Shown: positions 6,320 to 29,373 of the stretch, in pieces
Layout of the letters: each line of letters starts with the position of its first letter
Numbering within the stretch: the stretch's first letter is position 1
DNA from: a virus
Length of the DNA stretch: 29,373 nt
IMG/VR virus record: IMGVR_UViG_3300030380_003829
Location: 1 to 29,373 of that record
Reading direction: 5' to 3' (one strand)
Translations under genes and position numbers: made by a program
The notes under the pieces: generated by a model
Seen by the model: the letters and a program-made list of their open reading frames with translations, nothing else
Told to the model about the DNA's origin: nothing
Database searches by the model: none

Positions 6320-6347
6320 TTTGTTGGTTAATTATCTTAATTGTGGG

Positions 6348-6380
6348 AAGGCTACTTTACTCAGGGGTAGCCTTTTTTTT
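6348..6380 (+). terminator. Rho-independent terminator
   Basis: AAGGCTAC (6348-6355) and GTAGCCTT (6367-6374) form a perfect 8-bp stem with an 11-nt loop, and eight T residues end the element. It closes the two-gene operon and isolates it from the chaperonin operon. Confidence 0.9.
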
Positions 6381-6439
6381 ATTTAAAAACCAACATATTT
6401 AAGCTATAAAGTATATAAATTGACTTAAAAAAAAGAGTG

Positions 6440-6514
6440 ATGAATTTAAATGATATATATTTCATAGGTATTTTATTATTCTTCATTTGGTTTATAGATG
6501 TAACAAACCGTTAA
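6440..6514 (+). CDS. Possible 24-residue membrane microprotein
   Basis: A 24-codon frame (MNLNDIYFIGILLFFIWFID and four more) with one strongly hydrophobic helix. It lies in the intergenic region before groEL with no clear promoter of its own. Length and AT bias make chance possible. Confidence 0.25.
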   Translation: MNLNDIYFIGILLFFIWFIDVTNR

Positions 6515-6700
6515 TTATGTTGATTTTCGACATAAAGCATGTTAATTATATGTTGGTTATTGATAGTTAACTAATTGATAATCATTACTTATGTTGATTA
6601 TGTTAATTATCCTCGCATGGGAAAAGTTGAAACAACAATAAATAATAAAAAAATATATATATAAGTAAAGGGAAAAAAAATCAACATTCGACATTTTTTA

Positions 6701-6708
6701 TATATTTG
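6701..6708 (+). promoter_or_regulatory. Chaperonin operon promoter, -7 element
   Basis: TATATTTG, an exact TAnnTTTG match, 25 nt before the groEL ATG. The inverted ATGTTGATT copy and the second TTCGACAT lie directly upstream (6679-6694), where an activator or repressor could act. No -33 TTG is apparent. Confidence 0.65.
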
Positions 6709-6733
6709 TATAAATCAAATCAAATAAAATCAA

Positions 6734-8329
6734 ATGGATAATTCGGGAGGATATTCGCCAAAGGATTTACATTTTGGCAAAGACGCACAATCAAAACTTA
6801 TATCGGGAATCACAAAACTATCAGATGCTGTTAAGAGCACTTTAGGTCCAATGGGTAACACAGTTCTAATTGAAAGCCCACATCACACGCACGGCATAAC
6901 TGTTACAAAAGACGGTGTTACTGTAGCTAAGAGCATTCAGCTTTTGGATGCGGTAGAGAACCTATCGGTACAGATGATGAAGGAGGCGGCAGATCGAACA
7001 GCTTCTGAAGCGGGTGATGGTACAACTACAGCAATTGTTTTAACCGAGGCACTAGTAAAAAAGGGTGTTGAGCTTATTGGGCCAAAGGATAATAAGACCA
7101 TGATCTTGAGAGAGGTAGCTGCTCTAAGCGATAAAGTTATTGACAGGTTAAAAAAGCAATCCATACCAGTCACTAAAGATTTACTATTAGACGTTGCTAC
7201 GATATCATCAAACAATGACCCTGAGATTGGCCAGATTATATCACAGACTTATAACCAGGTAGGAGAGAATGGGATAGTAACAGTTGAGAAGAGCCAAACC
7301 TCTGATACCACTTTTGAAACCACGCAGGGGATAAAGGTTGACCGGGGGTACTCAAGCCACCTGTTCATAAACAACCACAAGAAGGATGAGTGTATACTTG
7401 AGGACGTGCATGTCTTGGTGTCTGACTCTGAGATCAATAATATATTATCCATTGAGAATGTTCTAAAGCCAATAATTGCTGAGAACAAAAAACTATTAAT
7501 AGTAGCACCGTGTTCTCAAAACGTAACAAATACGTTGGCGGCTAACGTCATGAAGAACAATCTGAAACTTTGTACCATTATACCTCCCAATTTTGGGTAC
7601 AAACGCCACGAGCTGATGCATGATATCGCTCTCTCAGTAGGTGCTACTTATTTTTCTCAGAGCACAGGTGATGACCTGAGCCTTATGACGTTTAAAGATC
7701 TAGGTAGGGCATCGAAAGTTATCGTAGGAAAAGATAGCACGATCATACTCAAGGACGATAAGAAAGTTAGCAAAGAAGACATTGACAAAAGGGTTGAAGA
7801 ACTCCGGGACGCACATAAGATAACAAAGAAAAAAGCCGACAAAGATTTTATTATGTCTCGCATCGCATCCCTCACAGGCGGTGTAGGCGTTATCTATGTC
7901 GGGGGAAATACTGACCTAGAGCAGAAAGAACTCTATGATCGGGTCGACGACGCCGTATGTGCTGTAAGATCAGCAATCGTTGAAGGTATTCTTCCAGGAG
8001 GAGGCCTTGCGCTGTGGGAGGCAGCGGAGGATATTACAGATTCAAAATCGATCGCTCACGCGATATTAGGGGAGGCGCTTTCAGCGCCTTTAAATCAAAT
8101 TCTATCTAATGCTGGAATTGACTGGTCTCCCAATAGAGCGCAAGTAGGACAAGGGTTAGATGTAAAATCTGGTAAAACTGGCGACATGATTGAGATGGGG
8201 ATCATAGATCCACTAAAGGTTACTCGAACAGCACTTCAAAATGCAGTGTCTGTTGCCACCACGATACTATCAACAAATGCCATAGTTACTATGGCTAGGA
8301 GTTATGAGCAAAAAAATATTGAAGGATGA
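6734..8329 (+). CDS. groEL: Phage-encoded group I chaperonin GroEL
   Basis: A 531-residue chaperonin subunit covering all three GroEL domains. ATP-site motifs are intact: TLGPMGNTVLI (36-46), TKDGVTVAK (58-66), GDGTTTA (94-100), and RVDDAVCAVRSAIVEGILPG (403-422), which places the catalytic Asp corresponding to E. coli Asp398 in the conserved DD pair. The apical domain keeps DRGYSSHLFIN (203-213), but the usual APGFGD segment is changed to PPNFGY (284-289). The C-terminal Gly-Gly-Met repeats that line the cavity floor are absent; the protein ends QKNIEG. A GroES is encoded downstream. Known phage chaperonins are diverse; this one probably forms a ring that folds phage proteins, with or without host GroEL. 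The ATG follows a TAnnTTTG promoter. Confidence 0.96.
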   Translation: MDNSGGYSPKDLHFGKDAQSKLISGITKLSDAVKSTLGPMGNTVLIESPHHTHGITVTKDGVTVAKSIQLLDAVENLSVQMMKEAADRTASEAGDGTTTAIVLTEALVKKGVELIGPKDNKTMILREVAALSDKVIDRLKKQSIPVTKDLLLDVATISSNNDPEIGQIISQTYNQVGENGIVTVEKSQTSDTTFETTQGIKVDRGYSSHLFINNHKKDECILEDVHVLVSDSEINNILSIENVLKPIIAENKKLLIVAPCSQNVTNTLAANVMKNNLKLCTIIPPNFGYKRHELMHDIALSVGATYFSQSTGDDLSLMTFKDLGRASKVIVGKDSTIILKDDKKVSKEDIDKRVEELRDAHKITKKKADKDFIMSRIASLTGGVGVIYVGGNTDLEQKELYDRVDDAVCAVRSAIVEGILPGGGLALWEAAEDITDSKSIAHAILGEALSAPLNQILSNAGIDWSPNRAQVGQGLDVKSGKTGDMIEMGIIDPLKVTRTALQNAVSVATTILSTNAIVTMARSYEQKNIEG

Positions 8330-8474
8330 GCCTCTTTTATCTGAAGAAGATGCAAATATATTAGCTGAAATAATAGCAAGTAAATTGATAATTGAGAAGC
8401 TTAGTAAATCAATAAAAGGCAAAACTGTTTTTGGAGTAGTGCTTGAGATATTATCTGAACATAAAAGTTTATGA
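8304..8474 (+). CDS. 56-residue protein overlapping the groEL end
   Basis: An open frame of 56 codons starting MSKKILKDEPLLSEEDANIL, entered through the last 26 bases of groEL in another frame. It is helical, with a Leu/Ile-rich amphipathic middle (AEIIASKLIIEKLSKSIKGK). The overlap with groEL and a 7-nt gap to the PP-loop gene indicate operon co-translation. No homologous family comes to mind. A small chaperonin-associated factor is possible but speculative. Confidence 0.6.
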   Translation: MSKKILKDEPLLSEEDANILAEIIASKLIIEKLSKSIKGKTVFGVVLEILSEHKSL

Positions 8475-8481
8475 AACCTCA

Positions 8482-9327
8482 ATGATTAAAGTAAATGCAT
8501 TATCTGGTGGAAAAACAAGTTCGTACATAGCGGCTAATTACCCAGCGAATTATGATGTATTTGCTTTAGTAAGAATTGCACACCAACCATCTAAATTTTC
8601 TGATAAGAAGATAAGGCAAGAAGTAGAAGATAGAATACAAGCACCTTTTGTTGCTACAGCCGAAGATGATATGATAATTTATACAATGCTTGACCTTGAG
8701 CAATACATAGGTAGAAAAATAACTTGGGTTACAGGTAAAACTTTTGATAAGGTTCTTGATAGTGCAGGCACCTTGCCTGATCCATTAAGAAGATACTGCA
8801 CAACACAAATGAAAATGGAACCTATGTTTAATTGGTGGAAAAAAACTATAAATATACCATGCGAGTTTAGATTAGGTTTCAGAGCAAATGAAAAAAAAAG
8901 AGCACAAAGAACAACAGAAAAAACAAATTCAAAAGGCTTTTTAGAAATTAAAACAATAGTCGGCAAAAGAGGATCTAGAAATAAATGGGGTATGATAGAG
9001 TGGCAAAAACCATCATATCCCTTAATTAAAGATAATATATACAAAGACACAATTGAAAAGTTTTGGAAAGATAAGCCAGTCAGATTCGCATGGATGAATA
9101 ATTGTGTAGGATGTTTTCATAAAAATCCTTTGCTAATTAGAAAAATGTGGGAAAAACACAAAAATAAATTACAATGGTTTGCATCAAAAGAAAGAATTAA
9201 ACATAAAAAAGATGTATGGTATAAAGATAAAAACTTATCTTTTGAAGATATACGTAAGTGGAATCTACAAACAGAACTATTTGATGATGACTTTAAAGAG
9301 TGTGATTCTGGTTATTGTGGAATATAA
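8482..9327 (+). CDS. PAPS reductase-like PP-loop protein
   Basis: A 281-residue protein from ATG 8482; an upstream in-frame TTG at 8443 is less likely. The N-terminus NALSGGKTSSYIA (5-17) is the SGGxxS nucleotide-binding PP-loop of the adenine nucleotide alpha-hydrolase superfamily that includes PAPS reductase and DndC. Downstream are RRYCTTQMKMEP (103-114), the family's R-x-C-T...K segment, then NNCVGCFHK (206-214) and ECDSGYC (273-279). These give several Cys in C-x2-C and C-x4-C spacing that could bind an iron-sulfur cluster or metal. The substrate is unknown; sulfur or nucleotide-modifying roles, or a role against host defence, are possible. It separates groEL from groES and looks more A-rich than either, suggesting later insertion. 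Confidence 0.8.
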   Translation: MIKVNALSGGKTSSYIAANYPANYDVFALVRIAHQPSKFSDKKIRQEVEDRIQAPFVATAEDDMIIYTMLDLEQYIGRKITWVTGKTFDKVLDSAGTLPDPLRRYCTTQMKMEPMFNWWKKTINIPCEFRLGFRANEKKRAQRTTEKTNSKGFLEIKTIVGKRGSRNKWGMIEWQKPSYPLIKDNIYKDTIEKFWKDKPVRFAWMNNCVGCFHKNPLLIRKMWEKHKNKLQWFASKERIKHKKDVWYKDKNLSFEDIRKWNLQTELFDDDFKECDSGYCGI

Positions 9328-9336
9328 AATATTATT

Positions 9337-9594
9337 ATGAAACCAATTGGAAAATACGTTGTGATCAAAACCATTGAAGAGGAACTAAAAACCTCATCGG
9401 GGTTATTACTTTCTGCGGAGGATTCTAACCAGCTTCGGTATAAGAAGGGGAGGATTGTTGAGGTAGGTACTGATGTTGTAGCTATCGATAAGGATAGCCT
9501 GATATACTACGATAAGCGCGCGGGATATACTATGTTTATTCATGATGAGCCTTATACGATCATTCGTGAGAATGACATTGTTCTTGTCGAATAG
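9337..9594 (+). CDS. groES: Phage-encoded co-chaperonin GroES
   Basis: An 85-residue Cpn10 protein, slightly shorter than bacterial GroES (about 95). It has the family start MKPIGKYVVIKTIEEE, a mobile loop around ELKTSSGLLLSAEDSNQ (16-32) whose Leu-Leu-Leu corresponds to the hydrophobic tripeptide that docks onto GroEL, then KKGRIVEVG (36-44) and a C-terminal strand IIRENDIVLVE. The canonical V-x-x-G-D-x-V region is replaced by IDKDSLIYYDKRAG. It lies 9 nt after the PP-loop gene, so it belongs to the groEL operon. It would cap the phage GroEL ring and possibly the host one. Its 3' end overlaps a convergent gene by 35 bp. Confidence 0.92.
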   Translation: MKPIGKYVVIKTIEEELKTSSGLLLSAEDSNQLRYKKGRIVEVGTDVVAIDKDSLIYYDKRAGYTMFIHDEPYTIIRENDIVLVE

Positions 9595-10012
9595 CTTCGT
9601 TCATTTTTAGAATTTGTTTTCTATAAACCTTATCGCTATAGCCTATGTCTGCCAAAAATATTGGATTGTTTGACTTAGCCGTTGGTATCAAGCCCCCGTC
9701 TAATTTATCGTATATTGACCCTAGCATTCGGTTGGCTTTGAACGATAAACCATAAAGCGCTTTCTTTCTCTCACGTCGGTTGTATGGTTTTATAACTTCA
9801 ATCCACCCCTGTTGACGAAGTTTGTTAAACCTGTTTTTATTCCATCCTAGAACTGAATTAAACTCTTGAAACTTATCAACGTTAAAGTATTCTTCGCTAT
9901 ATAAAAAAAGCAGCATGTCTAGCTCTTGAGTGTTAACTTTATACTTTCTCATAACGAAATATCTGATAACTCTCCAGTATTTTAAGTAGTCTCTATTTCT
10001 TGAATTTTTCAT
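9560..10012 (-). CDS. Winged-helix (MarR-like) DNA-binding protein
   Basis: A 150-residue protein, the only leftward gene in the right part of the window. Residues about 8-105 have the order of a MarR-type winged helix: an N-terminal helix (YLKYWRVIRYFVMRKY), TQELDMLLFLYSEEYFNVDK, a recognition helix near WNKNRFNKLRQQGWIEVIKP, then a basic wing (NRRERKKALYGLSFKANRML). The N-x-x-R-x-x-x-L-x-x-x-G-W-I-E step is typical. The remainder is a charged tail. It may repress or activate the neighbouring virion and chaperonin genes. It is divergent from the gene at 10052 and convergent with groES (35-bp overlap). Ligand and DNA site are unknown. Confidence 0.75.
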   Translation of the reverse strand: MKNSRNRDYLKYWRVIRYFVMRKYKVNTQELDMLLFLYSEEYFNVDKFQEFNSVLGWNKNRFNKLRQQGWIEVIKPYNRRERKKALYGLSFKANRMLGSIYDKLDGGLIPTAKSNNPIFLADIGYSDKVYRKQILKMNEAIRQEQCHSHE

Positions 10013-28245: not shown

Positions 28246-29373
28246 ATGGCAGGACAAGTCAAAAGTACCCCTACTTTTGCGCTAACGCCAAGTTCAGAAA
28301 GAACTCCGACAGCGCAAAATTATCTAACCAATGCAGATTTCGATTGGTTAAATCAATATTTACCTGACACTTACGAAAAAGAATTTGAGCGTTACGGTAA
28401 CAGAACTATCTCATCTTTCCTACGTATGGTAGGTGCTGAGATGCCTACTAACTCTGACTTAATTAAATGGGCAGAGCAAGGTAGACTACATACTAAATAC
28501 ACAAATGTTGGATCTGGCGGAGCTGGAGCAGCAGACCAAGTAACATTTCAAGTAAATGACGTGCTAGACCCCACGGCAGCAGAACAAGTTATTAGAGTTG
28601 GACAAACTGTAGTAATTGTACAAAACGACGGATCTGGTTCTAACAAAGCTGTTGTAAGTGCTGTAAACAATGCCGCTGGTGGTAGAGGTCAGTTCACAGC
28701 CGACTTCTACGAAGCAGGTGGTTTAGTAACTGCGGGAACTGGAGTAGGTAATGCTGATGTTACAGTATTTATTTATGGATCAGAATTTAAAAAAGGAACA
28801 GCCGGAATGGACGGTTCTCTTGAATCAAATGATTTCATCTTTGACAATAAGCCAATTATCATCAAGGATACTTACAATGTATCTGGATCAGACATGGCCC
28901 AAATTGGATGGATTGAAATTACAACTGAAGACGGTGGAACTGGATACCTTTGGTACCTTAAATCTGAGCATGAAACAAGACTTAGATTTGATGACTATTT
29001 AGAAACAGCAATGATTGAAGCTGTACCTGCTGAGCAAAACTCAGGAGCTGCTGCCATTTTGGGTAGCGCTGGTGCTGCTGCTGATCCAGGAGCTGGATCT
29101 GATGGTATTTTTTACGCTGTACAACAAAGAGGTAATATCTGGGACGGTGGAAACCCAACAGTATTAGCTGACTTTGACAATGTAATTAGTCGTCTAGACA
29201 AGCAAGGAGCAATTGAAGAAAACGTACTATTCGTTGATCGTCAGTTTGCTTTTGATATCGATGATATGTTAGCTGCACAAAACTCTTACGGAGCAGGTGG
29301 TACTTCATATGGTCTTTTTGACAATGACGAAGAGATGGCGTTAAACTTAGGTTTTTCTGGATTCAGAAGAGGT
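28246..29373 (+). CDS. Major capsid protein, 3' end beyond window
   Basis: The frame is open from ATG 28246 to the window end (376 codons visible). It begins MAGQVKSTPTFALTPSSERT. The FERYGNRTISSFLRMVGAEM segment (about 47-66) followed by SDLIKWAEQGRLH is an N-terminal pattern I have seen in major capsid proteins of uncultured marine phages. The body is Gly/Ala/Asp-rich with the mixed alpha/beta look of HK97-type capsid proteins. The codons look regular and unambiguous, as expected of a highly expressed gene. The HK97 fold is inferred from family and position after portal and scaffold. Confidence 0.85.
   Translation, partial: MAGQVKSTPTFALTPSSERTPTAQNYLTNADFDWLNQYLPDTYEKEFERYGNRTISSFLRMVGAEMPTNSDLIKWAEQGRLHTKYTNVGSGGAGAADQVTFQVNDVLDPTAAEQVIRVGQTVVIVQNDGSGSNKAVVSAVNNAAGGRGQFTADFYEAGGLVTAGTGVGNADVTVFIYGSEFKKGTAGMDGSLESNDFIFDNKPIIIKDTYNVSGSDMAQIGWIEITTEDGGTGYLWYLKSEHETRLRFDDYLETAMIEAVPAEQNSGAAAILGSAGAAADPGAGSDGIFYAVQQRGNIWDGGNPTVLADFDNVISRLDKQGAIEENVLFVDRQFAFDIDDMLAAQNSYGAGGTSYGLFDNDEEMALNLGFSGFRRG

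Follow-up and report, generated by a model that had tools for sequence, protein, structure and literature searches.

The chaperonin genes and their products

We analyzed, gene by gene, a virus record of 29,373 bases from IMG/VR (IMGVR_UViG_3300030380_003829; this whole stretch is called the window here), which derives from a marine phage, probably with a Bacteroidota host, and which carries a pair of chaperonin genes. The groEL gene (Cpn60) occupies positions 6734 to 8329 on the plus strand and encodes 531 amino acids (aa), and groES (Cpn10), on the same strand at positions 9337 to 9594, encodes 85 aa. The original prediction had placed a phage-encoded GroEL and GroES here, and family matches far beyond chance in Pfam, PHROG, and NCBIfam bore this out. 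GroEL matched Pfam Cpn60_TCP1 (1.6e-52, 179.3 bits versus a cut-off of 34.3), PHROG 5725 (8.6e-132), and the NCBIfam models PRK12849 (467 bits versus a cut-off of 352) and PRK00013 (445.5 versus 397), and it scored below the cut-off of the strict equivalog TIGR02348 (428.7 versus 582.1 bits). Its AlphaFold2 monomer, with a predicted local distance difference test score (pLDDT) of 82.3, matched GroEL/Hsp60 chains in the PDB with an E value of about 1e-46. GroES matched Pfam Cpn10 (8.7e-13, 48.6 versus 21.1 bits) and PHROG 3188 without reaching the NCBIfam GroES cut-offs, and its AlphaFold2 model (pLDDT 89.8) matched Cpn10 crystal structures with E values down to 1.6e-6.

A scan of IMG/VR with the window GroEL yielded 176 relatives, the best 80 of which are 64 to 93% identical to it. 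Residues were compared in E. coli numbering among 81 family members, 80 cellular GroELs, and 13 proteins of other phages. The residues T30, G32, P33, K51, D52, D87, G88, T89, T90, D398, and D495 are invariant in all 81 members, and the ATP/Mg/K site, including D52, D87, T89 to T91, and D398, is invariant in 80 to 81 of the 81. The ATP-site residues are thus intact, as had been claimed, and the phage GroEL is predicted to be ATPase competent. Loss of the Gly-Gly-Met (GGM) C-terminal tail and alteration of the APGFGD segment had also been described correctly, but both are lineage-wide and not peculiar to the window gene: the tail is found in 0/81 family members versus 59/80 cellular GroELs, and the cellular APGFGD reads PP[NSQ]FGY in every family member. 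A GGM-type tail is common among GroELs but not universal. The view of PPNFGY as the sign of a changed binding site in the window gene alone is weakened, since the motif is fixed throughout the family. The most informative features are three that the first reading of the sequence had missed, namely a lid without a roof, a rewritten apical groove, and unconserved ring-to-ring contacts.

Lid, apical groove, and ring interface

The groove that binds clients and GroES is represented in E. coli GroEL by Y199, Y203, F204, L234, L237, L259, V263, and V264. In this region of the phage family, the changes Y203L, L234E, A260N, V264A, and R268K are fixed in all 81 members and V263A occurs in most, with Y199, F204, and L237 retained. 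The canonical hydrophobic groove, which is a trait of cellular members and no strict criterion of the family, was accordingly not found. Conservation at the groove positions is 0.92 within the family, nearly as high as the 0.96 seen in cells, and we therefore reason that the groove is in use, probably with a different specificity. Such substitutions in E. coli GroEL abolish the binding of clients and of GroES, so that a compensating change in the partner lid is likely.

The lid itself lacks the roof β-hairpin, and its AlphaFold2 model is strandless between residues 44 and 54. This hairpin is present in E. coli GroES and absent from T4 gp31, and it is no strict criterion of the Cpn10 fold. The roof region measures 13 residues in 80/80 family GroES proteins versus 22 in E. 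coli, mostly 17 in Bacteroidota-type cellular lids, and 15 in gp31. The mobile loop, which reads GLLL in the window protein, retains the pattern G-[LI]-[LVI]-L in 80/80 family GroES proteins, that is, an IVL-type hydrophobic tripeptide after Gly.

Short roofs were also seen outside the family. The lid of Flavobacterium phage elemo likewise has a roof region of 13 residues, and Bacteroides phage DAC23 carries a GroES (positions 2218 to 2481 of locus L172) with an equally short roof (13) beside a separately captured Bacteroidales GroEL. Because the DAC23 GroEL was captured separately, roof shortening in phage lids probably arose repeatedly. In elemo, a 543-nucleotide gene beside the terminase (NC_062741.1; L163:306-848) is also annotated as co-chaperonin GroES, and it looks like either a misannotation or another divergent lid.

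For the ring interface, we examined the inter-ring contact positions 105, 108, 109, 434, 452, 461, 463, and 464. Their conservation within the family is 0.285 versus an equatorial mean of 0.706, and 0/10,000 random equatorial sets were as low, while the same eight positions have a conservation of 0.70 in cellular GroELs. These values are consistent with a phage GroEL that is probably a single ring.

Inheritance and genomic setting

A profile search detected GroES in 78/80 relatives, always downstream of GroEL and on the same strand (79/79 loci with the window included), the order being the reverse, groES-groEL, in 77/80 cellular loci. The two relatives with no GroES match are one that ends inside GroEL (L040) and one with about 1.5 kb past GroEL (L009). 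GroEL copies that are 92 to 93% identical occur in independent viral assemblies with the same synteny. In a separate search of 20 contigs with a related portal protein, 9 proved to carry GroEL, the same 9 carry GroES, and none carries only one of them; both genes are present in 6/6 of those of at least 56 kb. The nearest annotated genome, Podoviridae sp. ctfjg026 (MW202828.1, 60,850 bp, circular), has the pair as well, with GroEL 61.8% and GroES 50% identical to those of the window and with the same synteny (groEL-groES-regulator-...-terminase-portal), its convergent gene after groES being annotated as a repressor; it differs in having no cargo between groEL and groES. Found in the relatives, in the portal-related contigs, and in ctfjg026, the chaperonin pair belongs to the regular gene set of the lineage. 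The view that a full pair is uncommon was not supported, since pairs occur in these 78/80 nearest viral loci, in other phages, and in the literature.

The GroELs of the family form one clade with 100/100 support, whose stem is 1.6 changes per site long, and cellular GroELs are 36 to 40% identical to them. A phylogeny against cellular GroELs had been proposed as a check on the pair, and it revealed no near-identity inside a single host genus, the best cellular match being 40%. A Bacteroidota origin of GroEL was neither shown nor rejected (approximately unbiased test, p=0.20), in a deeper tree that is limited by long branches. Among other phage GroELs, that of DAC23 falls inside Bacteroidales and that of KT1024 beside E. 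coli, and both look like separate captures. Two further matches were set aside: in "Acinetobacter phage MD-2021a" the region consists of bacterial chromosome genes, and "Listeria phage LM 4-11-1" is an unverified, unannotated record.

GroEL and GroES distances correlate among 54 non-redundant members (r=0.80, 0/2000 permutations), and the ratio of nonsynonymous to synonymous substitution rates against the nearest siblings is 0.07 to 0.08 for GroEL and 0.05 for GroES. Because the distances correlate and these ratios are low, we conclude that the two proteins are co-inherited and that both are maintained under strong purifying selection. On these comparisons, we would describe the lineage as roughly 60-kb podovirus-like phages carrying a vertically inherited, functional group I-type pair, a description that, taken jointly with the explanation favored below, we consider about evenly balanced between right and wrong.

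The noncoding region before groEL (6320 to 6733, plus strand) contains an intrinsic-terminator-like hairpin at 6345 to 6377 and, 25 nucleotides before the groEL ATG, a Bacteroidota-type −7 box, TATATTTG, at 6701 to 6708. According to published papers, TAnnTTTG is the −7 element of Bacteroidota. In the window, it precedes six gene starts by 10 to 50 nucleotides, versus 0.95 expected (P=3e-4), and TANNTTTGT is not enriched genome-wide (11 versus 11.1 expected) but only in position before start codons. A −7 motif occurs at most 100 nucleotides upstream of groEL in 70/76 relatives versus 7.7% of random windows, a contrast that is somewhat overstated, as the random set was drawn with no matching for noncoding status. 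The recurrence of the motif before groEL supports a Bacteroidota host and a promoter of groEL's own. A host-type promoter had been proposed for the pair; the −7 box makes this plausible, whereas sigma-70 promoters are not in excess in the window (25 found versus 22.3 expected). Degenerate GTTAATTATGTTGATT repeats were also observed at 6506 to 6611 in this divergent noncoding region and are possible regulator or replication sites.

The pair had further been described as an operon of its own. This description is incomplete: the range 6734 to 9594 holds two additional open reading frames (ORFs) between groEL and groES, at 8304 to 8474 and at 8482 to 9327. The second, on the plus strand, encodes a 281-aa protein of the PAPS-reductase/SspD-like ATP-pyrophosphatase family (PHROG 424, 1.7e-13; PADLOC SspD, 1.2e-8) with no Pfam or PDB match. 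SspD serves as ATP-pyrophosphatase in a DNA phosphorothioation system, and no other ssp genes were noticed near 8482 to 9327. The nearest siblings, L002 and L025, lack this cargo gene, which is 99.5% identical at the nucleotide level to positions 1188 to 2033 of L261, where it occupies the same site between flanks that have diverged from those of the window (groEL 67.6% and groES 76.7% identical); ATGAAACC, the start of groES, flanks the insert on both sides. With near-identical cargo between diverged flanks and ATGAAACC at both ends, the window cargo is a recent cassette transfer into one site, and the machine tolerates the insertion.

Across loci the gap between groEL and groES varies between -5 and 3487 bp, with a median of 271 bp, and exceeds 400 bp in 32/79. 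Among loci L002 to L081 (L045, L012, L065, and L075, for example), the slot holds PhoH in 10 loci and a 2OG-Fe(II) oxygenase in 6, and further contents are a minus-strand amidase and metallophosphatase set (up to 6), crAss001_48-like genes, and small membrane proteins. We considered the PAPS-reductase-like gene as a part of the chaperonin operon and rejected this, because the siblings closest to the window lack it and the slot holds many unrelated cargos; it is a passenger and not part of the machine. The first ORF (8304 to 8474, plus strand, 56 aa) overlaps the end of groEL and is conserved in the nearest siblings, where its stop codon and the start of groES overlap (ATGA). Small ORFs that resemble it occupy the equivalent place in other relatives.

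Left of about 5.5 kb, the window genes point leftward and encode proteins resembling SSB, exonuclease VIII, and Erf; beyond about 5.9 kb the direction is mostly rightward, with groEL followed by a structural block. Downstream of groES, with its 3′ end overlapping it, lies a regulator-like gene on the minus strand (9560 to 10012; PHROG 17028, weakly 12817), which marks the conserved synteny and is outside the chaperonin. PHROG matches further identified a terminase, a portal, and a virion structural protein; the last, the presumed major capsid protein (28246 to 29373, plus strand; PHROG 13704, 3.8e-68), is cut by the contig end.

A putative dedicated folding machine

Viral GroEL/GroES pairs have already been reported, and a phage GroEL of its own combined with a roofless lid, a rewritten groove, and an unconserved ring interface suggests a dedicated machine. 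The explanation that we favor, at roughly even confidence, is an ATP-driven machine with a matched, open-topped lid. It would work chiefly in single-ring form, would be expressed before the structural genes, and would have the capsid protein as its likeliest client. GroEL would form a heptameric ring without the canonical ring-to-ring contacts. The rewritten groove and the phage mobile loop would be matched to each other and would cooperate poorly with the GroES and the clients of the host, and the groove, being weakened, would let the lid leave without a signal from a second ring. The roofless lid would create a taller, open-topped chamber, as with T4 gp31, in which a large virion protein could fold.

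This client is most likely the presumed capsid protein, of 487 aa at full length in the relative L082 (about 52 kDa, an estimate), whose gene follows those of the portal and a scaffold-like protein; the groEL-groES pair is placed ahead of the rightward structural block. The original prediction had named the capsid protein and the large fibers as possible clients, and by analogy with T4 the capsid protein is plausible and the best candidate. The LamG-like fiber (688 aa) is larger than a classical chamber takes. In T4, gp31 is without roof loops, and their absence is believed to enable GroEL-gp31 to fold gp23, the capsid protein of 56 kDa (PMC6318259).

Three other accounts of the pair were weighed. 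A recently acquired host gene or an assembly contamination has in its favor a GC content slightly higher inside groEL (0.42) than in neighboring windows and nothing else; we rejected it as having a negligible chance, given the best cellular identity of 40%, the 100/100 monophyletic viral family, the 92 to 93% identical copies with the same synteny in independent viral assemblies, and the presence of terminase, portal, and structural genes alongside the pair on the contig. The pair could alternatively boost proteostasis in general, supplementing or replacing host GroEL/ES during infection for many viral and host proteins in an ordinary double-ring cycle with no special client. A full pair with intact ATP residues would suit such a role, as would the own promoter at the divergence point, from which early expression could follow, and the chaperonin of phage EL prevents the aggregation of model proteins (PMC7185714). 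However, the groove is fixed in a noncellular form (L234E and others in 81/81), and the lost GGM tail, the unconserved inter-ring positions, and the roofless lid speak for specialization and not for a copy of the host machine, which leaves this account rather improbable.

The two proteins could also have decoupled roles, with GroES serving as a gp31-like lid on host GroEL and the phage GroEL acting as a lidless holdase or foldase like those of EL, OBP, and AR9. T4 encodes only a lid and uses host GroEL (PMC6318259), the chaperonins of EL, OBP, and AR9 work without GroES, and E234 is expected to weaken lid binding. Against such a division stand the fixed gene order, divergences that track each other (r=0.80), and a groove and mobile loop that are both conserved within the lineage, and we judge it still less probable than a general booster.

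Several observations count against a dedicated single-ring machine with a capsid client. The capsid client rests on the T4 analogy and on gene position. The roof is already short (17) in Bacteroidota GroES, so that the phage roof region is only about 4 residues shorter than that of the likely host, and roof loss alone is no proof of a larger cavity. Positions 434 to 467 are rich in indels, and alignment noise may account for part of the signal at the ring interface; it is because of these indels that the single ring is kept here as a prediction, and another ring-ring interface could exist in the phage GroEL. Finally, three portal-related contigs of 44 to 52 kb carry no chaperonin, reflecting either fragments or true absence.

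Known systems share parts of the proposed design. The presence of the two chaperonins together in some phages is noted in PMC7185714, which cites Marine et al. 2017, and the GroEL/GroES of virioplankton (Marine et al. 2017, ISME J 11:2479, as cited in PMC7185714 and PMC8390657) are likewise a group I pair from aquatic viruses. A close relative of the window lid is already in databases: an 85-aa GroES of an uncultured virus (BFVD A0A221S3G2) is 54% identical over 85 columns, with a TM score of 0.93. In Flavobacterium phage elemo (e.g., NC_062741.1), groEL is directly followed by an 83-aa groES with the short roof described above, but its GroEL is 38% identical, sits on a long branch, and has altered ATP motifs (P33Y, G88S, and T91C). 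T4 gp31 and RB49 CocO are phage-encoded Cpn10 proteins, as is the window lid; gp31, however, is a 111-aa protein that shares about 14% identity with GroES and uses the GroEL of the host, whereas the window phage encodes a GroEL too. The window lid matched the gp31 structure 1g31 weakly (E 4e-3, 14% identity). The EL, OBP, and AR9 chaperonins are phage-encoded GroEL-like ATPases that are single rings at least transiently (PMC7185714, PMC5934643, and PMC9598537), but they function without GroES, and the window GroEL is about 26% identical to that of EL. A model of how a machine of this kind could work is mitochondrial Hsp60/Hsp10, which is largely single ring yet lidded (PMC5575113), with about 38% identity to the window GroEL. 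In the searchable literature, the full text of Marine et al. 2017 excepted, we found no report of a roofless lid, fixed groove changes, unconserved inter-ring positions, or a cargo slot in such pairs.

E. coli single-ring GroEL is functional only with weakened GroES binding (PMC5575113). A bolder proposal, which we regard as tentative and rather unlikely, is that the dedicated phage machine is a natural lidded single-ring chaperonin, in which the lost interface would be offset by a weakly binding groove and loop and the roofless lid would admit oversized virion proteins. If true, it would be the natural counterpart of the "Goldilocks" solution engineered in E. coli GroEL-SR. The purified phage chaperonins in the papers that we found (EL, OBP, and AR9) are lidless, and the best-known phage lid, gp31, comes without a phage GroEL. 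The lineage described here offers a complete, abundant, and divergent pair in which lid, groove, and ring interface have all changed together, and it opens two questions to direct testing: can one ring complete its cycle when a lid takes part, and did phages evolve roofless lids for capsid folding?

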